Below are positions 67 to 14,319 of a DNA stretch of 14,640 bases, piece by piece; within the stretch, counting starts at the first letter, position 1, and each line of letters starts with the position of its first letter. The position numbers and the translations under genes were made by a program. The notes under the pieces were generated by a model. The model saw only the letters and a list, made by a program, of their open reading frames with translations. It ran no database searches and was not told the origin of the DNA. The stretch comes from an uncultured Clostridium sp. GTDB lineage: Bacteria > Bacillota > Clostridia > Lachnospirales > Lachnospiraceae. Location: NCBI GenBank assembly GCA_958349075.1, contig CATWBR010000051.1, positions 1-14,640 of the forward strand, written 5' to 3'.

Positions 67-83
67 TTGGCACAGTAATTGCT
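67..83 (+). promoter_or_regulatory. Sigma-54 (RpoN) -24/-12 promoter
   Basis: The sequence reads TTGGCAC, five bases (AGTAA), then TTGCT. The invariant GG (69-70) and GC (81-82) are exactly 10 bases apart, matching the sigma-54 consensus TGGCAC-N5-TTGCW. The expected start is near base 94, giving a leader of about 35 bases before the ATG at 129. Sigma-54 promoters require an ATP-driven enhancer-binding activator. None is encoded in this window, so it would have to lie outside, perhaps just upstream. The element predicts conditional, substrate-responsive expression of the lyase/symporter operon. Confidence 0.85.
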
Positions 84-128: not shown

Positions 129-1655
129 ATGAAACCAATTATAATGGGGGAAAAGATAACGATTGAGGATGTGGTAAATGCAGCCCGCCATCATTTCCCG
201 GTGAAATTTTCGGAAGGATACTGCAGCCGTGTTGAGAAATGCCGCGGTTTTGTAGACAAATTCAGCCGGGAGGGACAGGCAATTTACGGTCTGACAACCG
301 GGTTGGGGGATAACTGGCGAAAATTCATTCCGGAGGAGGACCGCATTGCCATCCAAAGAAATAACATCCTGGCCCACACATGTTCCGTCGGTGAACCGAT
401 CAACGAGGAATGCACCAGAGCCATTATGTTTGTCATGCTGGCGCACTTTGGAAGCGGCCATACGGGAATCCGCCTTGAAACTTTAAATCTGCTGAAAGAT
501 ATGCTAAATTATAATGTAATACCAAGGGTGCCCGGCCATGGCTCGGTCGGTTACATCTCCCTGGAGGGACATATCGGCATGGTCATGATAGGAGAGGGAA
601 AAGCCTGGTACCGGGGGAGGCTTTGGGACGGCAAAAACGCCCTGGCCGAAGCCGGTCTGAAACCAACAATCCTGTCTTCCAAAGAAGGGCTGACCATCGT
701 CTCCGGAACCACCTCGGTCACTGCCTTTGCTGCGCTGGCCCTCTATGACGCCGTAACCCTGACCCAAACCGGTGATATCGCGGCCGCCCTGACCCTGGAG
801 GTCCTGAAGGGTAATCTGATGGCCATGGATCCCCGCATCATGGAGGCGAGGCCCCATCCCGATCAGGGATACACCGCCGCCAATATAAGAACTATCCTGA
901 AGGACAGCCCCATCCTGGAAGCATACAAAGGGCATCGGCTCCAGGACGCGCTTTCCGTCCGCTGTGTCCCGCAGCTTCACGGCGCAGTCAAAAAATATAT
1001 CAAGGACGGAATCGATGTCCTGAATATTGAGCTGAATTCCTCGGTGGACAACCCGCTCCTGTTTGAGCAGGAAGACGGCACCCCTATTGCGCTGATGGCC
1101 TGCAATGCAGACGGCACTTATCCGGGATTCACCTCAGACATCCTGCTAATCGGCATCACCGACATGTGCAAAATGGCCGCCAGCCGCATTGATCGGATGC
1201 TGAACCGTCTGGTCAGCGAGCTTCCCGCCTTTTTAAACAGGAATTCCGAATATAATAACGGCCTTATGATGATACAGTACGCCGCAGCCGGTCTTTTGGG
1301 CGAACTGAGAATCCTGTCTCACCCGGCGGTTGTTGATAACCTGGTAACCTGCGCCAACCAGGAGGATTACGTCAACATGGGCTATAACGCTGCAAAAAAG
1401 GCATACGACGGCGTACATCTGGCAAAATATATCTGTGCCATTGAGTTAATCTGCGGAACGCAGGCTCTCGACTGCTACGACAGTCTGGAACCCGCAGCCG
1501 CAACAAAAGCCGTTTACAATCTGCTGCGGAGCGTTGTACCGGCAATGGAAAGCGACTCCGCCCTGGAACCGTTCATGGAATCCGTCTCTTCCCAGATAAT
1601 CGGGCGCGGATATATTGACGCCGTGGAGAAAGTGACAGGAACGCTGCGATTTTAA
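129..1655 (+). CDS. MIO-less HAL/PAL-superfamily lyase (ergothionase-like candidate)
   Basis: This cytoplasmic protein of 508 residues has the full length and fold markers of histidine/aromatic amino acid ammonia-lyases: IYGLTTGLG (52-60, catalytic Tyr53), QRNNILAH (76-83), GSVG (138-141), QDALSVRC (272-279) with Arg278, the ELNSSVDNPL block (301-310), and NQEDYVNMG (410-418) with Glu412. The key oddity is that Ala-Ser-Gly, which normally follows GSVG and cyclises to the MIO cofactor, is replaced by Tyr142-Ile143-Ser144, and the segment is about three residues shorter. Two MIO-supporting residues also differ: the Asn of the usual LINGT is Ser192 (IVSGT), and the Tyr of QD-x-YS is Leu275. The base (Tyr53) and the carboxylate-binding Arg278 remain. 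Known precedent: ergothionase, a HAL homologue that eliminates trimethylamine from ergothioneine. Inference: elimination from a substrate that already has a good leaving group, not HutH. A pseudoenzyme is possible but unlikely, since the frame is intact. AGAGAGGAG lies six bases before the ATG, favouring it over the ATG at 144. Confidence 0.85.
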   Translation: MKPIIMGEKITIEDVVNAARHHFPVKFSEGYCSRVEKCRGFVDKFSREGQAIYGLTTGLGDNWRKFIPEEDRIAIQRNNILAHTCSVGEPINEECTRAIMFVMLAHFGSGHTGIRLETLNLLKDMLNYNVIPRVPGHGSVGYISLEGHIGMVMIGEGKAWYRGRLWDGKNALAEAGLKPTILSSKEGLTIVSGTTSVTAFAALALYDAVTLTQTGDIAAALTLEVLKGNLMAMDPRIMEARPHPDQGYTAANIRTILKDSPILEAYKGHRLQDALSVRCVPQLHGAVKKYIKDGIDVLNIELNSSVDNPLLFEQEDGTPIALMACNADGTYPGFTSDILLIGITDMCKMAASRIDRMLNRLVSELPAFLNRNSEYNNGLMMIQYAAAGLLGELRILSHPAVVDNLVTCANQEDYVNMGYNAAKKAYDGVHLAKYICAIELICGTQALDCYDSLEPAAATKAVYNLLRSVVPAMESDSALEPFMESVSSQIIGRGYIDAVEKVTGTLRF

Positions 1656-1685: not shown

Positions 1686-3119
1686 ATGCTTACCGCAATC
1701 GATAACATTGTATTACTGGCATGTGTCGCAGGCGTCCTGCTGATCGGCAAATATTTCTCGAAAACCTCTCAGAATATGGACAGCTTCTACCAGGCCAACA
1801 AGTCCCTGCCCTGGTCCCTGGCCGTTGGAACCCTGGTTGCATCCTGGTACGGCGGGGCGGGCGTCATCGGAACAATCGGTTATTCCACCACAATGGGTAT
1901 TTCCGCGTTTTTCATCTGGTCCCTGTGCGTCCACATGACGAGGTTTCCGCTGGCTCTCTGGGTTGCTCCCAGGATTTCCATCAAGGTCAATACGACGATG
2001 ACAGAGCTGTTAAACCGCTACTACGGAAGGGCCGCCTCTTTCATAGGAGCCATCGTTCTCGTGGTATCCTGTCTTTCCATCGCCGAAATCGCCGCCACCG
2101 GGTATGTCGGCGTGGCAGCATGGAATATCAATAAATTTGTCGTCGCCTTCGGCGTAGTGCTGATAGCCACGGTCATAACGTGCCTCGGCGGACTGATGGG
2201 CGTCGCCGTCACGGATATGATTTTTTTCTTTCTGATGATAGCCTGCGTAACGTCCGTATTTCCTAAAATATTCTTCAGCGTGGGCGGTTTTGCAGGCATC
2301 GAGGCATCACTGAATTCCGTTGCACCCGAGGTGCTGACCCCGCTCGGGGGAACGCCCGTCGGCAGGGCCATCTGTCTGATTGTACTGTGCATCAATGTGT
2401 ATAAAGATCCCGCATTTTATCAGCGTTTTACCGCATCCAACTCGATAAAAACGGGAAAGAGAGCCATGCTGACCTGCCTTTCCATCTGGATTTCCTTCGA
2501 CGTGGTGCTGATTTTTACAGGTATCATCCTGAGGGCAATGGATCCGTTCTCAACCGCCCAGCCGGAAGTGGCCTATGTTCAGTTAATCCTCTCATACCTA
2601 CCGGCTGCCGTCCGCGGGCTGTTCATCTTTGGCCTGATGGGGGCTATCATCTCGACCATTGACTCTTACTTCCTGATCGGCGGAGAAATTTTCTCCCGTG
2701 ACATTATCGGTGCGTTCAGGAAAGAGCCTCTGACCGACAGGCAGAGTATCGGGATTACCAGAATCTGCTGTATCGTGTTCGGCGTCATCGGCCTGTTTAC
2801 CGCATTTAAGTTTCCTCTGGTTTATGACGCATTCCTGTTTATCAACAGCCTCAGCATGTGCGGCCTGTTCGTCCCGGTCCTCGCCGCAATCATGTACAAC
2901 GGCAAAAAGACCACCACAGCCGGTATTCTGAGTATGATTTCCGGAACGTTATCCTGGATTTATTTTACCTCGTTCCCGGTATCATGTGAACTGCTTGGAG
3001 GAACCGTAGACGCCCTGCTGATCGCCCTCCCCATCTCTTTTATCGGATATCTGATAGGAAACCGGTTCGGCAAAGTACTTTACATTGACAATGGAGGAAA
3101 TTATGGAAAAATACAATAA
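1686..3119 (+). CDS. Sodium:solute symporter (SSS family) permease
   Basis: A polytopic inner-membrane transporter of 477 residues, the usual size for the solute/sodium symporter family, with about 12-13 hydrophobic segments. Family signatures seen: the N-terminal NKSLPWSLAVGTLVASWYGG (39-57 and on), DPAFYQRF (241-248), and the helix-8 motif ISTIDSYFLIGGEIFSRDI (322-340). In that motif Ser323-Thr324 correspond to the Na2-site Ser-Thr of PutP/vSGLT. AAGGAGGA precedes the ATG by seven bases. It starts 30 bases after the lyase gene, so the two are almost certainly co-transcribed from the sigma-54 promoter and the symporter probably imports the lyase substrate. SSS members carry amino acids, betaines, sugars, vitamins and short acids, so the substrate cannot be read from sequence alone; a zwitterionic or amino-acid-like compound fits the partner enzyme. 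Confidence 0.9.
   Translation: MLTAIDNIVLLACVAGVLLIGKYFSKTSQNMDSFYQANKSLPWSLAVGTLVASWYGGAGVIGTIGYSTTMGISAFFIWSLCVHMTRFPLALWVAPRISIKVNTTMTELLNRYYGRAASFIGAIVLVVSCLSIAEIAATGYVGVAAWNINKFVVAFGVVLIATVITCLGGLMGVAVTDMIFFFLMIACVTSVFPKIFFSVGGFAGIEASLNSVAPEVLTPLGGTPVGRAICLIVLCINVYKDPAFYQRFTASNSIKTGKRAMLTCLSIWISFDVVLIFTGIILRAMDPFSTAQPEVAYVQLILSYLPAAVRGLFIFGLMGAIISTIDSYFLIGGEIFSRDIIGAFRKEPLTDRQSIGITRICCIVFGVIGLFTAFKFPLVYDAFLFINSLSMCGLFVPVLAAIMYNGKKTTTAGILSMISGTLSWIYFTSFPVSCELLGGTVDALLIALPISFIGYLIGNRFGKVLYIDNGGNYGKIQ
3093..3097 (+). promoter_or_regulatory. RBS that sets the start of the small membrane protein
   Basis: GGAGG lies five bases before the ATG at 3103, inside the end of the symporter gene. This favours 3103 over the in-frame TTG at 3085 and ATG at 3091, neither of which has a comparable Shine-Dalgarno sequence at the right distance. 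Confidence 0.65.
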
Positions 3120-3396
3120 TACCACACCTGCAGCTCCCGGCGGGGAAGACACCGGAAAAAAGAGCCCCGAAGTAAATGAAGATATCCGCGTGGAATGGTT
3201 CGGCGCCGACGGCGGCCTGATCCTCCTGTACTTCATTCTTGCCGCCGTTTACACCTATGGCATTCTCTGCCGCGTAGACATCATAGTGGGAGTGATTGCC
3301 CCGGGCATCGCGTTCGGTATCACCGCCGCTATCTTCCTCCGCTACTGTTTTGAGGTGTTCCATTTTACCAAAGGAGCCAAAAAAGGAGGAAAATAG
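3103..3396 (+). CDS. Small two-helix membrane protein, putative symporter accessory subunit
   Basis: A protein of 97 residues with a polar N-terminus rich in Pro, Gly and charged residues (1-37), two hydrophobic helices (about 38-56 and 58-78), and a short basic tail ending in GAKKGGK. The start overlaps the symporter stop by 17 bases, which implies translational coupling and near-stoichiometric production. Small membrane proteins encoded beside SSS transporters are a recurring theme: YhdT (DUF997) with PanF, the DUF485 protein with ActP, and DUF4212 proteins. By that analogy it is inferred to be a transporter subunit. I cannot assign it to one of those families from the residues seen. Confidence 0.75.
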   Translation: MEKYNNTTPAAPGGEDTGKKSPEVNEDIRVEWFGADGGLILLYFILAAVYTYGILCRVDIIVGVIAPGIAFGITAAIFLRYCFEVFHFTKGAKKGGK

Positions 3397-3476: not shown

Positions 3477-4019
3477 ATGGAAATTATGGCTTTGCCAAAA
3501 CTTATGACAGTAGAAACAGCAATGGAAATCGCCGAAAAGCGGGGAAATTTCCTCGGCAGGCTGGTGCTAAAGGAAAAGAAGATTACGCTGAAACTGATGT
3601 ACCTCGAAAGTAAAGAAATTATTTACAACATGACTTATCAGCCTCTGCCTCTGATGAAAAAATCCCGCCTATCAACCGGCGGGCCTCAGGTGCAGAAAAT
3701 CCGAATAATGGTTGAAGGGACCCGGTGCACTCCCGCATTTCTGGACGAGCCGTTAAAAACAGTCAGGGTACGGATTGATGAGGAAGACCAGCTTCAGAAT
3801 ACGCCCTTTCCGGATCAAAAGCTGATTGAGGAGGGCAAATACCTGGCGCGGCGTATGGTGCGCCGGCAGTCCGGCAGGAATGTCTGCATGGAAGCTGAAT
3901 CCGTACATTCCGTCTACCGGCCTTATTATGTGGCTTTTTATGGGGATATAGTGCAGGGGACCCGCGTGCAGTACCTGCCGATCCCGGCGGACGGGAATGA
4001 AATCAGGAGAACCTTTTAG
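3477..4019 (+). CDS. Unrecognised 180-residue soluble protein of the lyase/symporter operon
   Basis: I do not recognise this family. It is a basic, mixed alpha/beta-looking protein with no signal peptide or membrane segment. Visible features: an N-terminal amphipathic helix (about 10-22), a Lys-rich strand region (28-50), a central KIRIMVEGTRCTPAFLDEPL stretch (74-93), a basic LARRMVRRQSGR patch (123-134), and an aromatic C-terminal block, SVYRPYYVAFYG (145-156) then TRVQYLPIPADG (162-173). It has only two Cys and no obvious nucleotide-binding or metal motif. AGGAGG lies eight bases before the ATG at 3477; an in-frame TTG at 3456 lacks such a site. The 80-base gap after the accessory gene, with no clear terminator, suggests the same operon. 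A role with the lyase or its product is inference only. Confidence 0.7.
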   Translation: MEIMALPKLMTVETAMEIAEKRGNFLGRLVLKEKKITLKLMYLESKEIIYNMTYQPLPLMKKSRLSTGGPQVQKIRIMVEGTRCTPAFLDEPLKTVRVRIDEEDQLQNTPFPDQKLIEEGKYLARRMVRRQSGRNVCMEAESVHSVYRPYYVAFYGDIVQGTRVQYLPIPADGNEIRRTF

Positions 4020-4834: not shown

Positions 4835-7800
4835 CTACCGTATCTGTTCCAGAATACTCGGGTCTTTAATCTTCGTATCTTCCGCAAACAAAAGGATTTT
4901 TGACAAAATCTCGGCCGTCTTCGGGTCGTCATCAATAAACGGAAGGAAAATACGCCCTCTGTGCTGTGAATGGACCGGAACGACAAAGAGCATTGCGTTG
5001 CCCATCTGATGCACGACGCCGCTTCCCAGATGTACCGTATACTGGCCCAGTTTTCCGTCGATAAACGCGTGGCTGCCCTCCAGGCGCACGTTTTTAATCT
5101 TAAACAGCTCCAGGTTGCATTCCACGATGGCTTTTCGCATCTCAACCGTAGAGTGGCTGGTCTCCGGATCCACGCCTCCGGCATGGGCAACGCTGACCGC
5201 CAGATCCACGTCTCTCATAACCTCGCTGTAAAGCACGTCGGGGATTTCCCTGATTTTGAGCTGCCTGAATGTTTTCCTGTCGGAGAACACCACCCATTCA
5301 AGAGTCGGAGCCTCCACGTCACTCGGCGAGAACCAGTCGGCCATTGCATATATCCTGGCTACGATATTTTCTTTATAGTATATCTTCTGCAGCCCATCCT
5401 CATAATCGGCAACCCAGCGGCGGCTCCGCAATGCGCCGACCGTCTTCTGCGGCTGAATCTGATTGCCTGAGAACATCCTGGAATCATCCTTATCGAGTTC
5501 CTCCGTGAGTTTCACATACAACTCGCGGAATACCTGCTTAAACGGCTGCTTTATCTGCCTGTCAAACAGCATCTTCTGATATTCGTGCCAGTGTCCTTCC
5601 CTGTAGAGATCGGACGGGTGGGCAATCAGAATCTTCTCATCCGGCTTCAATGGCGTTACGGTGCCGGACCAGTCCTCCAGTCCCTCCTCTTTCAGAAATC
5701 CCAGCCGGATTTTGGCATCCGTATTGCCTCCGTCTCCGGAAACGGCATCCTCTGCGGCCATCACCACAAGGGGTGTTACAATCGGCCTTACCACCGGATT
5801 TTTAGCCAGCTCCAGGAACTCCCAAACCTCGAAGGACGTCCTGTCCTCCATCGCCTGTTCCATCATCTGTTTTGTCCGGCTGTACTGCTCCTTTAACTTT
5901 TTGTTGACATCCTGATATTCCAGAACCGTCTCATTTTTCTTATATTTTGCAGGGATTGATTTGAGCATCTTCCCGCCCTTGGCGCACTGAAGGCTGCTCT
6001 TCCCGTTTTCATCCACCAGAATCCTCAGTTCCACTTCGCCCTGGCTGCTCCAGTCAAAATAACGTTCCATCGTCTCCACCAGGCGGTTTTCCATCCTGAG
6101 CGTCAGGCGTGTCACATCCGTGAATCCCGCATTGACACTGAGGTTCTGAAGCGCCAGCGCCACGGCGCGTCCCTCACTGGCCCGGCGCTGTGCGCCGAAT
6201 TTCTTACTCTCTTTATGGAACTTCTGAATAAACTGGTATCGGTCCAGGAGATCTTCTTCCCGCTTCTTTTTGTCACGTTCGGAAATTTTCCCTCCGGTGT
6301 TTTTTTCATTTCCGGCCAAGGGCAGGAGGCCGATACTCATCAGCAGATCTTTATTTCTCTTATCCGTAATTTCCGCTTTCAGAGTCTCTTTATCCACTTT
6401 TCCCAGTGCGGCGTCGGCATACTTCCTGGCGCGGGCATGGGCAGCTCCGGTCGAGGAGTATTTTGCCGCATCGTACAAAAGCTTAAATTCTTTATCACCC
6501 AGTTTATCATAGGCCTCAAAGAACCAGTGGATGTCAAAAGCCCCGTCCCTCAGTTCCTCCGGCGTCAGAGGAGTGTATTTGGCAATCATTGATGTCGTAA
6601 ACTCGTCCAGGCGCTCGCCGGTGTGGGCCATAAAGTAATAGCATCCGCTCTGGAATCCCGGAAGTCCCAGGTACTCCTCCAAAAGAGGTATCCACTGCTG
6701 GGCATACATGGCCATCTCCACCAGGCGCTTTTTCGTGATATCCGTCCCCTTCAGCGCCTTTTTCAGATCCTTCGCCGTCTCCCCCGGGTTCGGACGGCAT
6801 ACTTTCAGCAGATGGCTTAGAACCATCTTCCGGTCGCAGTTATTGGAATAATATCCTCCGGCTCTCTGTAATGTCTCTTTTCCCAGCGCCGTCAGGATCT
6901 GAATCATCAAATCAATGCCGTAAATCACACGAATCGAGGAGACATACCCGGAAAACGGTGTCTCCTGTTCCCCGCGTTTCAGCTCCACCTTGAGAACCAG
7001 CGGGACTATCTCATGGTAAATCTCGTGCGCCAGCTTCATGGCCGGAATCTCATCCCCAATCTGGTCAAAGTGATATTTTCCGTCTGCCGGCTTTATTACT
7101 CCCTGTCCGAAAAATGAATTCAGTTCTCCCACGCGGGCGTCCCTCGACGACACAGCTCCTTTTTGTTCCACCGCACTGACCGGGCCTAAAAGGCTCTTCA
7201 TATCCAGGAAACTGAATACGGATTTATAAAAAAGATCCTTATCCCAGATTCCCCTCACATAACACTGCACATAATCGGACAAATTCAGATAGCCCGCCCG
7301 CACTCTGTTGTAACGGCGGAACTTCTCACTGTCTTTGATCTTCCCATAGAATTCCTGGAGCTTAAAACGGAGCGTAAAGGCGCTTCCCCAGTCTTTTTCA
7401 TCCGCCAGGGACAGCCACCAGCGCATTTCCTCAAATACAGGGAGATCCGCGGCCCGTTTCGTATATTTCTCTATCGTGCCGTTCCATGCTTTTTCCTCGC
7501 ACTCATAGAGGGCATTGGATTTATCAAGGACTGAGACCAGCTTTGCCGTCCCGATAAGACCAAACCGGGCTTTGATTCCGGCAGGCACAAACTGGGAATA
7601 CAGTGTGTCAATCACCGTTCTGGCCTGCGCGCCGCATCTCAGTCCCTGGATCAGGTCCTTAAACGGCGGTTTCTTTATCAGGCCGCTTCCGAAAACCTTC
7701 TTATACAAATCAATATTTCTCTCGTAGGGTCCTCTCTGGGCACGGCATTTCTGGTAGAGATAAAGCTCCAGGAGCATTTCCGGAGTTTTAATTTCATTTC

Positions 7801-10036
7801 TGTAAAATTCCTCCCACATTTCCCTGAACGGCAGAGCATCCAGGGGTTCTGCATCGGGATCCCCGTGGATAAAACGGCAGTTATCCAGTTTTGTCCCCAG
7901 AAGCATCTCCACGCCCCAGGCCGTTGTGTATTCCAGTTCCTTCTTTTCCTCAATCAGCTCGTTTAACCGGTTCAGGATACTGATGCAGGCGCCTTCTCCG
8001 TTCGCAAACAACTTTGACGCCTGTTTTTCGTCTACATCCACGGGCGGCAGAATCCACTCTTTTTTTGTATCGTAGAGCCCGTATCCCGGCGTGTTTAAGA
8101 TATCCTGAGCCTCACTTTTCTCCCCCAGCAGTTCGCCGAGCAGCACCTGTTCACGCCCCGTAGGCTCCGTCAGCTCCTGCAGAAGCGGTTTGACTGCCGG
8201 AAATTCCTCAGGCTGTTCATTTTTTATCTGGAGGGCTAAGTCGAGAGCGCCCATCCGGCATTCTTCGGACCCGGTCCTGATCAGCCTGCCGACGGAGGCC
8301 TGCAGCGCGGCCGGCCCCTGCTTTCTGAGAAGCTTAAGCACTCCGGCCCTGCCCTTCTTATATTTGAGGTTCTGTTCAATTTTCAGATAATCTTCCGCTG
8401 TCAATTCCATATCCTCCACCAGAAGAAAGGCGGACTGCATCGTGTACTCCTCCGGGTTGTGAAGCAGTTCAAATAGGACGTCCCGCCTTATCTGGGACTG
8501 CGGCCGGTATAACAGCACGCGGGCGGCCGCAGCGCGGGAAGCGCCGGACGAGTTACCCTGGCCGACCGTCGGGATCAGCCCCGCCGCTTCATCCAGGTAT
8601 GATTCATCCTGGAGCATCCAGGCAATCAGGCACATCCTGACCGCAATGTCGGACTGGGTCATGGTCACGCGGTACCATGGAAAGATACATGGGTTTAAAT
8701 CCAGCCCCTTTTTGGGAATCCGCCCAAGAATATCCCGGAGCAGGCCGTAAATCTTCCTGGCCTCTTCCTCATTTTCAAACAGATCGGTCACCGGCTTCCC
8801 GTCCGGTTTTCTGATTTTCCCGTCGCGAAGCTGGAAATAGGATTTTCCGTCTTTCTCCTCGATCAGTGTTCGGAAATCGCCGTATGTATTGTCCATAAAA
8901 CCGGGAAGGAAACAGGCCACCAATTCCAAATCCTCAGGCCAGCTTAAGATGACCTCTTTTGCCGCTTTCCTCTTCAGATGTCCATACTGCAGGGAGCGGT
9001 TAAAATAGGAGGCCGTCATCTTCTGGTTCTTCGTCCCCTGCCTAATCAGTTTCTGCATCGCATCGATTGCCCGCTCTGCATCATAGAATCCGAGCGCCCA
9101 CAGGCCGCAGCTAATCGCCACGGAATCATTGCTTTCGAGCTGTTCCCTGCAGGCAGCTTCATCTCTCAGGCAGTTTCCCATCAGGCGCACCAGCTTTTCC
9201 GTAATACGGTCGATGTTTTTTTCATCGAAAATGCCGATCCAGGTACTGACGGCCCGTTTGATGGAAGAATAGCGGACAAGATCATTTTCCTCGATCACCG
9301 CAAACAGGTGCAGGAATGCCTCGGGACGGCCGGCATCCATGGTTTCACAAACAGCCTGTCTGGCCCCCTCCTGAAGCCTCGCAGCCAAAAGGAATTTGCC
9401 GAGCACTTCATAGAGCCCGCTGTTTTTGCTCATAACGATTCCGCGGATCAGTTCATGGCTGAGCATCAGGGTGTTTCCTTCTCCCATCAGGATATCTTCC
9501 ACAGCCCGGATTGTTTCCGTTTCTCCCCGGTCAATCCTGGCCGCCAGCATTCCCGCGTAGCTGAAACGTTCCGATCTGGCATGGTCGTAAATCTCCGGAT
9601 CCACCTGCCCGGTCAGAACCGCGGAAAGCGATGCCCCGTAGAAATCCAGCCTCGAATAAGCCCAGAGAAGCAGTATACTCTGAAATACAAACGGCAGGTA
9701 GCTCTTTGAGCGCACGCTGCGCCTGTACCATCCGGCCGTCATCTGGAACTGGTTCATCTGATCCAGGGCATAATAAAATTCTTCGGTCAGGTATTCCGGC
9801 ACACAGACCTCCACCAGTCCCCGCAGTTCGTTTTTATAAAGCTCACTGAGTGTCCCATATCTGCCGCTCTCCAGTTGTTCCCTCATCCATCTCTGGGGTT
9901 CCTGGGGTACAGAATAGTATGCCATTCCAGGCAGCAGTTGTTTCTCTCCGGCGGAAAGGGCATGTGCCTTCTCCTTGACACCCGCAATCCAGTTTTCCGT
10001 CATTTTACGTCTTGTCTGATATGTATAATCCGCCAT
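4835..10036 (-). CDS. Giant DUF5724/DUF4132 (MolR/YehI-like) protein
   Basis: A protein of 1733 residues, mostly alpha-helical with helical-repeat-like N-terminal two-thirds, no signal peptide and no clear membrane helix. The C-terminal third carries marks I associate with DUF5724/DUF4132 proteins: FGAQRRASE (1280-1288) followed by LQNLSVNAGFTDVTRL; HPSDL at 1473 with the QIKQPFKQVFRELY block ending at 1507; IPDVLYSEVMRDVDLAVSVA (about 1598-1617); and YTVHLGSGVVH (about 1666-1676). The E. coli relative YehI (MolR) lies in a locus with an AAA+ ATPase, a VWA protein and a SWIM zinc-finger protein; none of these is in this window. Biochemical function is unknown, and the old link of MolR to molybdate regulation is weak. 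GGAGG (10042-10046) lies five bases before the ATG. It follows the 143-residue gene by 17 bases, so the two form an operon. Family assignment is from remembered motifs. Confidence 0.8.
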   Translation of the reverse strand: MADYTYQTRRKMTENWIAGVKEKAHALSAGEKQLLPGMAYYSVPQEPQRWMREQLESGRYGTLSELYKNELRGLVEVCVPEYLTEEFYYALDQMNQFQMTAGWYRRSVRSKSYLPFVFQSILLLWAYSRLDFYGASLSAVLTGQVDPEIYDHARSERFSYAGMLAARIDRGETETIRAVEDILMGEGNTLMLSHELIRGIVMSKNSGLYEVLGKFLLAARLQEGARQAVCETMDAGRPEAFLHLFAVIEENDLVRYSSIKRAVSTWIGIFDEKNIDRITEKLVRLMGNCLRDEAACREQLESNDSVAISCGLWALGFYDAERAIDAMQKLIRQGTKNQKMTASYFNRSLQYGHLKRKAAKEVILSWPEDLELVACFLPGFMDNTYGDFRTLIEEKDGKSYFQLRDGKIRKPDGKPVTDLFENEEEARKIYGLLRDILGRIPKKGLDLNPCIFPWYRVTMTQSDIAVRMCLIAWMLQDESYLDEAAGLIPTVGQGNSSGASRAAAARVLLYRPQSQIRRDVLFELLHNPEEYTMQSAFLLVEDMELTAEDYLKIEQNLKYKKGRAGVLKLLRKQGPAALQASVGRLIRTGSEECRMGALDLALQIKNEQPEEFPAVKPLLQELTEPTGREQVLLGELLGEKSEAQDILNTPGYGLYDTKKEWILPPVDVDEKQASKLFANGEGACISILNRLNELIEEKKELEYTTAWGVEMLLGTKLDNCRFIHGDPDAEPLDALPFREMWEEFYRNEIKTPEMLLELYLYQKCRAQRGPYERNIDLYKKVFGSGLIKKPPFKDLIQGLRCGAQARTVIDTLYSQFVPAGIKARFGLIGTAKLVSVLDKSNALYECEEKAWNGTIEKYTKRAADLPVFEEMRWWLSLADEKDWGSAFTLRFKLQEFYGKIKDSEKFRRYNRVRAGYLNLSDYVQCYVRGIWDKDLFYKSVFSFLDMKSLLGPVSAVEQKGAVSSRDARVGELNSFFGQGVIKPADGKYHFDQIGDEIPAMKLAHEIYHEIVPLVLKVELKRGEQETPFSGYVSSIRVIYGIDLMIQILTALGKETLQRAGGYYSNNCDRKMVLSHLLKVCRPNPGETAKDLKKALKGTDITKKRLVEMAMYAQQWIPLLEEYLGLPGFQSGCYYFMAHTGERLDEFTTSMIAKYTPLTPEELRDGAFDIHWFFEAYDKLGDKEFKLLYDAAKYSSTGAAHARARKYADAALGKVDKETLKAEITDKRNKDLLMSIGLLPLAGNEKNTGGKISERDKKKREEDLLDRYQFIQKFHKESKKFGAQRRASEGRAVALALQNLSVNAGFTDVTRLTLRMENRLVETMERYFDWSSQGEVELRILVDENGKSSLQCAKGGKMLKSIPAKYKKNETVLEYQDVNKKLKEQYSRTKQMMEQAMEDRTSFEVWEFLELAKNPVVRPIVTPLVVMAAEDAVSGDGGNTDAKIRLGFLKEEGLEDWSGTVTPLKPDEKILIAHPSDLYREGHWHEYQKMLFDRQIKQPFKQVFRELYVKLTEELDKDDSRMFSGNQIQPQKTVGALRSRRWVADYEDGLQKIYYKENIVARIYAMADWFSPSDVEAPTLEWVVFSDRKTFRQLKIREIPDVLYSEVMRDVDLAVSVAHAGGVDPETSHSTVEMRKAIVECNLELFKIKNVRLEGSHAFIDGKLGQYTVHLGSGVVHQMGNAMLFVVPVHSQHRGRIFLPFIDDDPKTAEILSKILLFAEDTKIKDPSILEQIR

Positions 10037-10568: not shown

Positions 10569-11768
10569 TTATTTCCGTAAGAATTCAAATGCCGCCAGCG
10601 CCATTGCCCTGGTTGCCAGTTTGATATATTTTTCATCCACCATGAATTGTCCGCTGTGGGCAGGGGCGAAATTCCCCGTCCCAAGCTGGAGGTAACAGGA
10701 GGGCGCCTTTTGGGAATAAAAGCCGAAATCTTCCGCCGTCAGTGCCTGGCGGCTTCCCGTCAGCACACCGGGTTCCGGAATCTGCTCCATAATTCCGCCG
10801 TAAAGCTCGGAAGTATATTTTGCCATAAGCGAAGTGACAAATTCCGTAAGCGGCCCATCATTGTATATAGCCGGATATCCCGGACTGATATCCACATCAC
10901 ATGTGCCGCCGGCGGCCGCCGCTATCCCTGCACAAATCTCCCGGATCTGCCGGAACATGATTTCCCTTGTCTCCTCCCTTGCATTCCGCATCATGCAGAA
11001 GAGTTCGGCCCTGTCGGCCACGATATTGCCGGCCCGGCCTCCGCAAATCCGTCCCACGTTCAGGGTTGACTGCTGCATGGGGCTTATGTTTCTCGACACA
11101 ATGGTATTCAGCGCCATCACGATATTGGCGGCAATCTGGATTGCATCGATTCCGTCCTGGGGCGCGGAGGAGTGGGCCGCCTTTCCGTGAACCGTGATAT
11201 GGCAGCCGTCCGAGTAAGAAGTCAGATACCCGGTCCCAATCAGAAACTGCCCTGCCCGGACCGGATTAACATGCAGCCCGAAACAGGCGTCCGGCAGTTC
11301 ATCCATCAGTCCCTGCTCTATCATTTTCCGGCCGCCTCCGCCCCGCTCTTCCCCGGGCTGAAATACGAGTTTTGCCCGGCCGGACCAGGAGTCCTTCATT
11401 CTGTTGAGAATTTCTCCCACCGCCAGAAGGTTGGCCGTATGCACATCATGTCCGCATGCATGCATAATTCCTTCCCTTTTTGATTTAAACGACAGTTCCC
11501 TCTCCTCACCGATAGGCAGCGCGTCCATATCCGCCCGCAGCATCAGAAGCTTTCCCGGCCTTCCGCTGTCGATGCACGCCACAATGCCGGGTTCCACTGG
11601 GCTTTTATCATAGGGTATTCCCATCCGTTTAAGCTCATCTGCCACCAGTGCGCTTGTTTCATACTCCTCAAAAGCCGTTTCAGGGTTCTGGTGAATCCTG
11701 CGCCGGATGGAGATTGTGTTGTTTTCCAGTTCGTCTGAGAGTTTTATAATTCTTTCTATGGGCTCCAT
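10569..11768 (-). CDS. M20-family amidohydrolase (N-acyl amino acid hydrolase/HipO-like)
   Basis: A cytoplasmic metallo-amidohydrolase of 399 residues, the usual size for the M20D/HipO-AbgB group. Motifs seen: RRRIHQNPETAFEE (22-35), LRADMDALPI (77-86), MHACGHDVHT (102-111) with metal-site Cys105 and His107, QPGEERGGGG (137-146) with the Glu140-Glu141 pair, GLHV (164-167), GKAAHSS (195-201) in the dimerisation/lid domain, and the C-terminal AEDFGFY and HSGQF. The family uses two divalent metals to hydrolyse N-acyl or N-aroyl amino acids, and some members act on amidated conjugates or dipeptides. AGGAGG at 11778-11783 sits nine bases before the ATG at 11768; the in-frame ATG at 11810 has no ribosome site and would begin inside a hairpin, so I use 11768. 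Exact substrate is unknown. The 196-base gap to the upstream dehydrogenase gene holds its own promoter candidate. Confidence 0.9.
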   Translation of the reverse strand: MEPIERIIKLSDELENNTISIRRRIHQNPETAFEEYETSALVADELKRMGIPYDKSPVEPGIVACIDSGRPGKLLMLRADMDALPIGEERELSFKSKREGIMHACGHDVHTANLLAVGEILNRMKDSWSGRAKLVFQPGEERGGGGRKMIEQGLMDELPDACFGLHVNPVRAGQFLIGTGYLTSYSDGCHITVHGKAAHSSAPQDGIDAIQIAANIVMALNTIVSRNISPMQQSTLNVGRICGGRAGNIVADRAELFCMMRNAREETREIMFRQIREICAGIAAAAGGTCDVDISPGYPAIYNDGPLTEFVTSLMAKYTSELYGGIMEQIPEPGVLTGSRQALTAEDFGFYSQKAPSCYLQLGTGNFAPAHSGQFMVDEKYIKLATRAMALAAFEFLRK

Positions 11769-11777
11769 AGGCCGCTG

Positions 11778-11783
11778 CCTCCT
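11778..11783 (-). promoter_or_regulatory. RBS that sets the amidohydrolase start
   Basis: The minus strand reads AGGAGG, nine bases before the ATG at 11768. It lies inside the extension that would be translated from the ATG at 11810 and therefore argues for the shorter protein, whose N-terminus (MEPIER) also fits the family better. Confidence 0.7.
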
Positions 11784-11809
11784 GCTGCCGGTAATATTAT
11801 AATAATCCA

Positions 11810-11847
11810 TACAAAGCGGATGCCCCTATTCGGACATCCGCTTTGTA
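11810..11847 (-). other. 13-bp perfect hairpin in the amidohydrolase leader
   Basis: TACAAAGCGGATG (11810-11822) and CATCCGCTTTGTA (11835-11847) form a perfect 13-bp stem with a 12-base loop. Two further C-G pairs inside the loop (11824-11825 with 11832-11833) are possible after a mismatch. No U-run follows on either strand, so it is not a canonical intrinsic terminator. On the minus strand it ends 41 bases before the amidohydrolase ATG, so it would lie in the 5' leader. It may be a processing, stability or regulatory hairpin. Confidence 0.6.
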
Positions 11848-11885
11848 CAGATCGTTTCAGTTATTTTCATAAACCTGTTATGAAC

Positions 11886-11917
11886 GGAATCCTTTGTCTG
11901 AATCATAGCAGGATTCC
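11886..11917. repeat. 8-bp inverted repeat in the dehydrogenase-amidohydrolase gap
   Basis: GGAATCCT (11886-11893) and AGGATTCC (11910-11917) are perfect inverted repeats with a 16-base loop. They lie 48 bases or more past the dehydrogenase stop (11965) and overlap the candidate -10 region of the amidohydrolase promoter. It could act as a weak 3'-end hairpin for the upstream genes or as regulator half-sites. No U-tract follows. Confidence 0.35.
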
Positions 11918-11931
11918 TGCCTCTTATGCAA
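11902..11931 (-). promoter_or_regulatory. Candidate promoter of the M20 amidohydrolase with palindromic spacer
   Basis: The minus strand reads TTGCAT (plus bases 11926-11931), 18 bases, then TATGAT (11902-11907), preceded by TG one base away to give an extended -10 (TGCTATGAT). The -10 box matches five of six consensus bases. The spacer holds a near-perfect palindrome, GCAGGATTCCTGC (11908-11920, central T), a plausible operator. The start would be near 11895, giving a leader of about 125 bases that includes the 13-bp hairpin. Confidence 0.5.
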
Positions 11932-11964
11932 GGGGTTAGGGCTTCAAACATTAAGAGTTTCACC

Positions 11965-13077
11965 TTAATACAGCCTGCCGTAAATCTCCAGCACCTGCTC
12001 CAGGTTTATCTCCACATAACTGTTGGCCATCAGCCTGCCCTGGTTTTCCATAACGGAGCCCGCAAATTCCGCCAGCTTCTCACGCGGTACTCCATATTCA
12101 TGCAGGGCCTTTTTAGGAAGAAGGAATCCCAGCAGTTTTTCCAGTTCCTCATATACTTCCCCCTCCCGGCATTCCAGAATACCGGCCAGGAAACGGTTCA
12201 GCACGGCAATCTCCCCATCCGCCCTGCGCTCCATATAATAGTTCATGACACCGGTGAAGACAGCGTAGTTCGATTCCCCATGTGCAACGTGGAAGGCGGC
12301 TCCCAGGGGGTAGCTCAGTGCATGGACCGCCGCGCAGCCTGCATTTCCAAAGGCAATTCCGGCAAAACAGCTCGCAGTCAGGAAATCGTCCGTCAGCTCC
12401 GCCCTGACTCCCTCTCCCTCTGCGAGGATTTTTTGATACCCCCTCAGAATCATTTCGATTGCCTTGTATCCAAAAAGCCGGGTGAACTCATTCCCCTTGG
12501 GGGACAGGATTGACTCCACCGCGTGGATTAGGGCATCGATTGAACTGGTGGCAAATACATAAGGCGGCAGCTTTTCCAGCAGCTCCGGCACCAGCACTGC
12601 CCGATCCGCATACATTGCATTGCCGGCCATCCCCTTTTTCGTCCCTTTTGAGATTAAAGCAAGTATGGAGATATTGGTCATCTCGCTCCCAGTGCCGCAG
12701 GTTGTCGGAACAAGTATCAGTTCCCTGGCCTTTTCCGGCCGGATTCTGCCCTCGTAAAGTCCGGCAACCGGAGTCAGCGTTTTCAGGGCAAACAGCTTTG
12801 CAATATCGATTACGGTTCCCCCGCCGATTCCAATGATACGTTTATACTCACCTTTCCGGTCGCGGGCCATTGCCTCCACCATTTCGTCCGACGGCTCCCC
12901 CGCGCCGTACCGTTCCTGATACAATACATCGCAGGCCAGCCTGAGCTTGTCAAAATACGGACGGTAAACGGCCTCATTTGTAATAATCAAATCACCGGCC
13001 CCCAGCTTCAAGTCAGCGGCAAACGCTTCTGCCGTCCGGTACCGCCAGATGGCCGGCCTTATCATAAATTGTTCCAC
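11965..13077 (-). CDS. 4hbD: 4-hydroxybutyrate dehydrogenase (iron-containing ADH family)
   Basis: A cytoplasmic NAD-dependent group III alcohol dehydrogenase of 370 residues. It interconverts 4-hydroxybutyrate and succinic semialdehyde in the succinate/4-aminobutyrate pathways of clostridia. Seen in the sequence: the GGGTVID nucleotide-binding loop (85-91), TTCGTGSE (125-132), and the metal ligands Asp181, His185 (SSIDALIHAVES), His252 (AVHALSYPLG) and His266 (HVAHGESN). The stretches LGAGDLIITNE, ERYGAGEPSDEM and LVPTTCGTGSEMTN closely resemble the Clostridium kluyveri enzyme as I remember it, including total length. A GTG start at 13077 is chosen because AGGAGG lies five bases ahead; the ATG at 13125 would add 16 residues, has no ribosome site and lacks family similarity. 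It follows the CoA-transferase gene by 51 bases, same operon. A related short-chain hydroxyacid dehydrogenase is the main alternative. Confidence 0.85.
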   Translation of the reverse strand: MEQFMIRPAIWRYRTAEAFAADLKLGAGDLIITNEAVYRPYFDKLRLACDVLYQERYGAGEPSDEMVEAMARDRKGEYKRIIGIGGGTVIDIAKLFALKTLTPVAGLYEGRIRPEKARELILVPTTCGTGSEMTNISILALISKGTKKGMAGNAMYADRAVLVPELLEKLPPYVFATSSIDALIHAVESILSPKGNEFTRLFGYKAIEMILRGYQKILAEGEGVRAELTDDFLTASCFAGIAFGNAGCAAVHALSYPLGAAFHVAHGESNYAVFTGVMNYYMERRADGEIAVLNRFLAGILECREGEVYEELEKLLGFLLPKKALHEYGVPREKLAEFAGSVMENQGRLMANSYVEINLEQVLEIYGRLY

Positions 13078-13082
13078 GGTTT

Positions 13083-13088
13083 CCTCCT
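13083..13088 (-). promoter_or_regulatory. RBS that sets the GTG start of 4-hydroxybutyrate dehydrogenase
   Basis: The minus strand reads AGGAGG followed by AAACC and then GTG at 13077. The spacing of five bases and the strong match decide for the GTG over the upstream ATG at 13125 and the in-frame ATG at 13065. Confidence 0.65.
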
Positions 13089-13128
13089 GTCCTCCATTTT
13101 CCCCATTATCATACCTTTGCGGCATCCG

Positions 13129-14319
13129 CTAAATTACCCCTTCCCGCTTCAGCCTCTCAAGCTCATCTGCCGAGAATCCGAGCATCTTACCGTATATCTC
13201 GTCATTATGCTGTCCCAGAAGCGGCGGCGTCCTGAAAATATCAGGATCTGTTTCCGACATTTTCACCACCGGACCGTTCATCGTAAGCGTTCCCAGCTCC
13301 GGGTGCTCCACCTGCCGGATCATCTTCCTGTAGAGTAATTGTTCATCCCGCACCATCTCGTCAATCGTGTTCACCCGCGCCGCAGGTATTCCGTATGTCC
13401 CGCAGAGCGATAGAATCTCATCCATCTTTTTCGTTTTCACCCATTTTTCCACAATGGAATCACATTCTTTAATGTGATGGATACGCCCTGAAAGGAACCG
13501 GAAGTCCGGATCCTCCAACAGTTCCTCCCTCCCAATCATCCTGCACAGGTTTTTAAACGCCGTGTCCTGGCCTGCATGGATAAACGCCTGCCTGCCGTCC
13601 GCCGTCTCGTAAAAGTTTGCGGGGTAGGAGGCCCGATCCTGGTTGCCGTTGCGCTTCATTACTTCGCCCAGCTGATAGTAATTGATTATCGCCGAGTGGG
13701 TCAGCGAACTTGCGGCATCCAGAAGCGAAACATCCACAACCTGCCCTCTGCCGGTTTTCTGCCTTGCCTGAAGCGCTGCCAGGGTACCGATTGCACCGTA
13801 CAGCCCGGAGGTAAAGTCGCACACATATGTCCCTATCATCGTCGGTTTCCCTTCCGGTTCCCCGGTAATGTCCATCAGGCCGCTGACGGACTGGCCGACG
13901 GCGTCAAAGCATACTCTGTTTTTATAAGGCCCGTCCTGGCCGAAGCCGGATAATCTTGTAATAATAAGACGTGGATTCCGTTTCAGAAGCTCATCGGGAG
14001 CCAGCCCCATCTTTTCAAGCGTACCCGCCCTGAAATTTTCTACCAGGATGTCGGCGTCCTCCAGAAGCCGGTGCAGAATCTGCTGTGCCTCCGGTTTCCG
14101 GAAATCCAGTGTAATGCTTCTCTTATTCCTGTTGTGTGTCATAAAATAGGTACTCTCACCTTTATAAAACGGCGCATACCCCCTTGCCATGTCCCCCTCA
14201 TCCTTTTTCTCCACCTTTATGACATCGGCGCCGAAATCGCCCAGAATCATTGAGCAGTGAGGCCCTGCTATGACCCGCGACAAATCAATGACTCGTATAC
14301 CGTCTAATGCTTTTTCCAT
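13129..14319 (-). CDS. CaiB/BaiF (family III) CoA-transferase
   Basis: A cytoplasmic protein of 396 residues, the normal length for family III CoA-transferases, which swap CoA between acyl-CoA and free acid through an aspartyl-CoA anhydride intermediate. Seen: the N-terminal LDGIRVIDLSRVIAGPHCSM (5-24), LGDFGADVIKVEK (26-38), the NRNKRSITLDFRKPE stretch (63-77), ADILVENFRAGTLEKMGL (89-106), RLIITRLSGFGQDGPY (117-132), and the catalytic aspartate in TYVCDFTSGLYG (Asp168). The C-terminal LGQHNDEI is also typical. AAGGAGGA lies four bases before the ATG. The next gene is 4-hydroxybutyrate dehydrogenase and the preceding one a TctA permease, which suggests activation of an imported carboxylate, perhaps a C4 hydroxyacid. 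The acid cannot be told from sequence; relatives act on formate/oxalate, carnitine, bile acids, succinate and others. Confidence 0.9.
   Translation of the reverse strand: MEKALDGIRVIDLSRVIAGPHCSMILGDFGADVIKVEKKDEGDMARGYAPFYKGESTYFMTHNRNKRSITLDFRKPEAQQILHRLLEDADILVENFRAGTLEKMGLAPDELLKRNPRLIITRLSGFGQDGPYKNRVCFDAVGQSVSGLMDITGEPEGKPTMIGTYVCDFTSGLYGAIGTLAALQARQKTGRGQVVDVSLLDAASSLTHSAIINYYQLGEVMKRNGNQDRASYPANFYETADGRQAFIHAGQDTAFKNLCRMIGREELLEDPDFRFLSGRIHHIKECDSIVEKWVKTKKMDEILSLCGTYGIPAARVNTIDEMVRDEQLLYRKMIRQVEHPELGTLTMNGPVVKMSETDPDIFRTPPLLGQHNDEIYGKMLGFSADELERLKREGVI

Follow-up and report, generated by a model that had tools for sequence, protein, structure and literature searches.

The window analysed here, 14,640 nt of contig CATWBR010000051.1 (assembly GCA_958349075.1) from an uncultured Clostridium sp. 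of the Lachnospiraceae, encodes a lyase with the fold of histidine ammonia-lyase (HAL) in which the residue triad forming the 4-methylideneimidazole-5-one (MIO) cofactor is replaced. Judged from residue pattern, trees and gene neighbourhoods, this lyase is probably a substrate-induced, MIO-free eliminase expelling trimethylamine from an imported betaine of an aromatic or imidazole amino acid. Histidine betaine (hercynine) or another non-thiolated aromatic betaine would be favoured as the substrate over ergothioneine. The lyase is a member of an overlooked, usually misnamed family, called the GSVGY clade here. Its gene is an uninterrupted open reading frame (ORF):

129-1655, forward strand: MIO-less HAL-fold lyase of the GSVGY clade, subgroup A, 508 amino acids (AA), assigned by alignment and trees
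540-572, forward strand: shortened loop GSVGYISLEGH (codons 138-148) in place of the MIO-forming ASG loop, located by alignment

Active site and conservation

The lyase matches the Pfam family Lyase_aromatic and misses the curated hutH cut-off (446.5 bits, 539.15 needed). In the alignment with Pseudomonas putida HAL, the segment ASGDLAPLAH corresponds to Y-ISLEGH, the ASGD site being occupied by Tyr142-Ile143-Ser144 and a three-residue gap. HAL Asn195 is replaced by Ser192 and HAL Tyr280 by Leu275; Tyr53, His83, Gln272, Arg278 and Glu412 are unchanged. An earlier inspection of this DNA (the sequence-only reading) had described the exchanged loop with its deletion, both substitutions and the retained Tyr53, His83, Arg278 and Glu412, and the alignment agrees on each point. 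It further reveals Ala327 at HAL Phe329 and a retained Met380 (HAL Met382). Compared with HutH proteins, the fold with His83, Arg283 and Glu414 (HAL numbering) is present and the ASG (or SSG) triad is absent.

Conservation was determined in 121 rows, i.e. the query and the best 120 of 1062 homologues. Tyr53, the loop residue Tyr142, Ser192, Arg278, Tyr384 and Glu412 are invariant (121/121), Leu275 is found in 119 rows, and no other triad of the type [AST][SCT]GD occurs in any of them. These near-invariant features indicate a conserved family and not decay, and the loss of the MIO triad proposed for the single sequence holds for the entire set. Source names among the best 120 of 1062 homologues are histidine, aromatic amino acid or HAL/PAL/TAL family ammonia-lyase, which is the misannotation that had been predicted.

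GSVGY genes were detected in 4 of 250 Lachnospiraceae genomes in a first draw, in 8 of 397 genomes when the family was drawn a second time and, using a strict cut-off, in 5 of 391 genomes of the class; all three figures are lower bounds, as the draws share genomes and few candidates per genome were scored in the first look. The distribution is patchy. A gut origin of the window is suggested by its relatives. Several genomes (G001, G028, G030, G138 and G349) contain more than one copy, and members were found in Proteobacteria too. A search of the order of G002 (E 1e-150, 245 genomes including G002) gave no match and is uninformative, since the G002 gene itself matches in two pieces. In two close relatives, P0046 and P0052 (about 620 AA), the C-terminus is a PF02583 domain (metal-sensitive repressor), representing either a fusion or an assembly artefact.

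Phylogeny and relation to ergothionase

The query scores 174 bits against Treponema denticola ergothionase (PDB 6s7j) and 290 bits against HAL 7tqr. A Blautia parvula protein (locus L045) reaches 523 bits against 6s7j, which identifies the ergothionase group; locus L064 contains a close copy of the Treponema protein. In four aligned ergothionase-type rows, Ser and Leu are found at the two positions changed in the query (HAL 195 and 280; Ser192 and Leu275), together with Tyr53, His83, Arg and Glu. The loops of these rows read GEGDI, GEADI/L or GQADI, GSVGY being absent from all four, and each has Lys at the site of Tyr384, which corresponds to position 383 of the Treponema denticola chain. The 2019 work of Maurer is said to have found this Lys and Glu411 essential.

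Seven partial or duplicate rows were removed before alignment. The first tree comprised 50 rows (31 GSVGY, 14 MIO and 5 ergothionase-type) after removal of eight near-duplicates. For the second tree (48 rows), five MIO outgroup rows were added and seven further near-copies removed. Both trees are quick ones, with support from the Shimodaira-Hasegawa-like approximate likelihood ratio test (SH-aLRT) only. In either tree, support is 100 for the ergothionases, 99 for the core GSVGY clade and 100 for subgroup A containing the query; for the whole GSVGY clade, the values are 75 and 81, respectively. GSVGY and ergothionase rows lie on one side of a branch in the second tree with a support of 59 only, consistent with one or two losses of MIO. 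Long branches in the quick tree lead to L048 and L010. The sequence-only reading had named two sequence findings as evidence against itself, a position of the query among the MIO-containing lyases and an ASG triad at a shifted site; trees and alignment revealed neither. Among plasmid matches, L006, L008, L009 and L048 have the ASG triad and L007 is broken. A profile of the loop only, built from 13 GSVGY segments, ranked HALs above 6s7j in the PDB; all it revealed was the greater length of the ergothionase loop.

Judged from alignment and trees, the GSVGY proteins are a distinct MIO-less clade and the query is not an ergothionase; this identity was rejected on account of the separate clade, the other loop and Tyr384 in place of Lys. 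The ergothionase-like betaine eliminase proposed earlier thus stands in part: the exchanges of Asn195 to Ser and of Tyr280 to Leu are shared with ergothionase, but the query falls outside its clade and lacks its loop and Lys. Ergothioneine, one of the substrates then named, is disfavoured on the same grounds. Among the matches listed from the open-access literature, none described an MIO-free lyase besides ergothionase. On a Sinorhizobium meliloti plasmid (L049, 4926-6566), a gene outside the trees encodes the ergothionase-type loop GSVGQADM and, by eye, an N-terminus resembling a signal peptide.

Gene neighbourhoods

Neighbouring genes were called using a simple script and labelled by phmmer. 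Named representatives of BCCT, SSS, MttB, AcnX, AcnX swivel, Ldh_2, RidA, urocanase, xanthine-dehydrogenase and sigma-54 activators were identified with Pfam or NCBIfam, and all eight sigma-54 activators were checked in this way. The HutI label denotes an amidohydrolase named by eye, for which Pfam gives the superfamily only. Seventeen GSVGY loci, the window among them, were compared with 21 MIO loci; short contigs are included (L042, 3.9 kb; L083, 5.3 kb; L056, 6.0 kb). L002 (contig end), the plasmid loci L003-L010, short duplicates, the ergothionase loci L045, L046 and L051, and L059 and L060 were left out. The last two have the MIO triad; the L059 lyase was missed by the gene caller and L060 was unscored. 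In L059, HutU and HutI are present and the five markers used below are absent.

In the GSVGY loci, BCCT and SSS transporters were found in six loci each, MttB in three, AcnX in five and a sigma-54 activator in eight. At least one of these five markers is present in 16 of the 17 loci, the exception being the 6 kb contig L056, whereas all 21 MIO loci lack them. HutU or HutI is present in 12 MIO loci; among GSVGY loci, HutI is found in 0/17 and HutU in 3/17. Fisher's exact test gave p-values of 8e-10 for any of the five markers and 2e-6 for BCCT or SSS, for loci which are related and in several cases come from the same genomes. At the level of the clade, the betaine-type transporters and MttB-family methyltransferases argue for the link to betaines suggested for the lyase; the window itself has an SSS symporter. 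No in-frame stop was found in the four MttB homologues checked, and both of the two scored fell below the pyrrolysine-type cut-off; hence, those checked look like the non-pyrrolysine kind.

L064 combines an ergothionase-type gene, a GSVGY lyase, BCCT and xanthine-dehydrogenase genes in one cluster. The same gene set is present in L062, where the ergothionase-type gene is a 218-AA piece at the contig end. In G001 and G349, lyases of subgroups A and C lie beside AcnX, Ldh_2, MttB and SSS, and in G349 also RidA. AcnX large and swivel subunits, often as two pairs, occur near MIO-less lyases in L001 (4066-7415), L053, L055 and L041, in the company of Ldh_2, RidA and MttB.

On the Klebsiella pneumoniae plasmid pKPN-065 (L005/L089, record 55880-69223), a GSVGY lyase annotated as aromatic amino acid ammonia-lyase is surrounded by an otherwise complete hut pathway (HutU, HutI, HutG, formimidoylglutamate deiminase, HutC, HutD and an ABC importer); no second HAL-like place was found in this record. 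Of 72,556 plasmid records, 203 contain a gene at least 90% identical to that of the lyase, 191 of these being from Klebsiella; in 163, at least 80% of the gene is covered by the match. An MIO-less entry enzyme combined with a full urocanate pathway points to a histidine derivative with a better leaving group, e.g. histidine betaine. This suggests histidine betaine as the substrate of the Klebsiella branch, and the cluster is a candidate for histidine-betaine utilisation.

Probable sigma-54 control

A putative promoter precedes the lyase gene:

68-83, forward strand: sigma-54 (-24/-12) promoter match TGGCACAGTAATTGCT, perfect for TGGCACN5TTGCW, 46 nt upstream of the lyase start

With one mismatch allowed, the window contains two matches versus 0.46 expected, and 15 of 200 shuffles reach two. 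Taken alone, the site at 68-83 is therefore modest evidence for a promoter; it is backed by similarly spaced sites in related loci. The pattern TGGCA[CT]N5TTGC[AT] has 13 matches in the 17 GSVGY loci (291,012 bases) and none in the 21 MIO loci (341,883 bases). Of these sites, seven precede the start of a lyase or BCCT gene by 45 to 63 nt, another precedes a called lyase start by 149 nt and a further one precedes MttB by 13 nt; for the remaining four, no start was called within 200 nt. Activators with the Pfam sigma-54 interaction domain are encoded in L039, L040, L042, L043, L052, L058, L061 and L063. None was found in the window, the left end of which is 128 nt before the lyase. Predicted sites and activators together are the logic of an inducible catabolic operon.

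The lyase operon and other genes of the window

The lyase is the first of a run of genes in one direction, followed by:

1686-3119, forward strand: sodium:solute symporter (SSS, PF00474), the probable substrate importer (Pfam; 90% identical to the L039 symporter)
3085-3396, forward strand: small membrane protein, ORF of 103 AA overlapping the symporter end, no Pfam match
3477-4019, forward strand: 180-AA protein associated with the lyase (family and neighbourhood data)

L039, from genome G138, has the same gene set, its lyase being 82%, its symporter 90% and its 180-AA partner 67% identical to those of the window. In L039 and L058, a single fused protein combines the symporter with the homologue of the small membrane protein.

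The 180-AA protein belongs to a family of 81 members, the window's own included. In eight of the 81, the size of the longest contig exactly matches that of one of the 120 lyase clusters, from which it follows that the protein tends to travel with the lyase; it adjoins lyases in L001, L039 and L058. Its fold is confidently predicted (mean predicted local distance difference test, pLDDT, of 88). The predicted structure had no match in the PDB at E 0.001, and the window protein had none in Pfam at E 1.

On the reverse strand, 4835-10036 encodes a protein of 1733 AA with DUF5724, DUF4132 and DUF7737, which looks unrelated to the lyase operon. An M20 amidohydrolase, an iron-containing alcohol dehydrogenase and a CaiB/BaiF CoA-transferase are encoded in one direction at 10569-14319, also on the reverse strand, and look like a separate catabolic cluster.

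Proposed reaction and alternative explanations

We infer that a quaternary amino-acid betaine whose side chain is an imidazole or otherwise aromatic would enter via the adjoining sodium symporter, and that the operon would be induced through the sigma-54 promoter, presumably by a substrate-sensing activator. The carboxylate would be held by Arg278 and Gln272, the ring by His83 and Glu412, and the beta-proton would be taken by Tyr53; we assume that these catalytic roles can be transferred from HAL and ergothionase. Trimethylamine, in itself a good leaving group, would then depart from the alpha-carbon with no need for an electrophilic cofactor. Room for the trimethylammonium head may be provided by Ser192, Leu275 and the shorter loop at Tyr142. 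This reaction is supported by the Ser/Leu pair common with ergothionase, an established trimethylamine-lyase for whose lack of MIO PMC13405746 cites Maurer 2019, and by the retained HAL-like His83, Met380 and Glu412. The marker genes and sigma-54 sites of the GSVGY loci, the ergothionase-type genes in the clusters of L062 and L064 and the Klebsiella hut cluster count in its favour as well.

Several observations speak against it. The query is more similar to HAL than to ergothionase by bit score, and subgroup A in the window and L039 is accompanied by SSS, not BCCT, and by no HutU. AcnX and Ldh_2 beside subgroup A (G001, G349), with RidA in G349, fit no simple betaine route. The residue code is uneven, as some clade members, those of subgroups C and D, retain Asn195 and most of D retain Tyr280, and the Klebsiella lyase is a deep, distant branch with Gly at HAL position 195. 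The compared loci are related and partly from the same genomes.

Another leaving group (sulfonium, pyridinium or hydroxyl), or release of ammonia from an amino acid whose beta-proton is acidic, as for the aspartase/fumarase relatives of the fold, would likewise need no MIO. This is unlikely in view of the BCCT and MttB genes near clade members, of His83 and Glu412 as ring-binding residues and of the Ser/Leu pair resembling that of ergothionase. Conversion of ergothioneine to thiourocanate and trimethylamine by an ergothionase proper would account for Ser192, Leu275, Tyr53, Asn62, His83, Gln272, Arg278 and Glu412, all common to both proteins, and for the joint occurrence of both gene types in L062 and L064. 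It is nevertheless improbable: the clades are separate (ergothionases and subgroup A each with support of 100), the loop differs, Tyr384 replaces the Lys of all four aligned ergothionase-type rows, and in G001 and G620 a true ergothionase-type gene lies beside GSVGY genes, so that a second one would be redundant. A catalytically dead or regulatory HAL paralogue, which the lost triad alone could suggest, or an ordinary HAL forming MIO elsewhere, is highly improbable given the invariant Tyr53, Arg278 and Glu412, the lack of any other [AST][SCT]GD triad, the conserved operon with transporter and promoter, and the Klebsiella lyase being the only HAL-like place beside the remaining hut pathway.

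Trimethylamine is the precursor of trimethylamine N-oxide (TMAO). If trimethylamine elimination by the lyase is true, a set of genes now called histidine or aromatic ammonia-lyase encodes betaine trimethylamine-lyases, and the clade shows a fold built around MIO chemistry working without MIO. It would also allow a direct test of the loop, the residue pair 195/280 and the leaving group. The inventory of gut trimethylamine formation in PMC10653893 gives four routes (choline, glycine betaine, carnitine and butyrobetaine) and no ergothionase-like one; its main text has no match to 'ergothion'. A BLAST-based verdict in PMC13405746 (2026) is that ergothionase is rare, with the paper's own caveat that divergent homologues were left uncounted. 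For the GSVGY clade as a whole, the chances seem evenly balanced that it is an undescribed family of MIO-free trimethylamine-lyases for non-thiolated amino-acid betaines in Firmicutes and Proteobacteria and a trimethylamine source absent from present inventories. Histidine betaine would then be the substrate in the Klebsiella hut cluster, and gut Firmicutes would degrade other aromatic betaines; several paralogues in one genome would serve different substrates, with sigma-54 control and the 180-AA partner.

Comparison with known systems

With ergothionase (6s7j and the Blautia protein of L045), the query shares the HAL fold without MIO, Tyr53, Asn62, His83, Ser at HAL 195, Gln, Leu at HAL 280, Arg and Glu at HAL 414. 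BCCT adjoins the ergothionase-type gene in L045 and L064. In contrast, ergothionase has GEGDI, GEADI or GQADI for GSVGY with two further residues missing in the query, Lys for Tyr384 and Phe for Ala327, and it forms a separate clade.

HutH proteins (Pseudomonas putida and the MIO types of Lachnospiraceae) have the same fold with Tyr53, His83, Gln277, Arg283, Met382 and Glu414 (HAL numbering), but the query clade lacks the ASG triad and has Asn195 and Tyr280 replaced, and GSVGY lyases have no HutI and rarely HutU nearby.

The Klebsiella lyase resembles the query in the GSVGY loop with its three-residue deletion, His83, Leu at HAL 280 and Glu414, and joins the core GSVGY clade with a support of 88; it differs in its ABC importer and full urocanate pathway, in Gly at HAL 195 and in Pro at Gln383.

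Choline CutC, carnitine CntA, the glycine betaine and butyrobetaine routes and the MttB-family demethylases act on quaternary amines, as is proposed for the lyase, and MttB homologues adjoin some members of the GSVGY clade. The enzyme folds and the chemistry of the other gut trimethylamine routes are unrelated to those of HAL-fold lyases.
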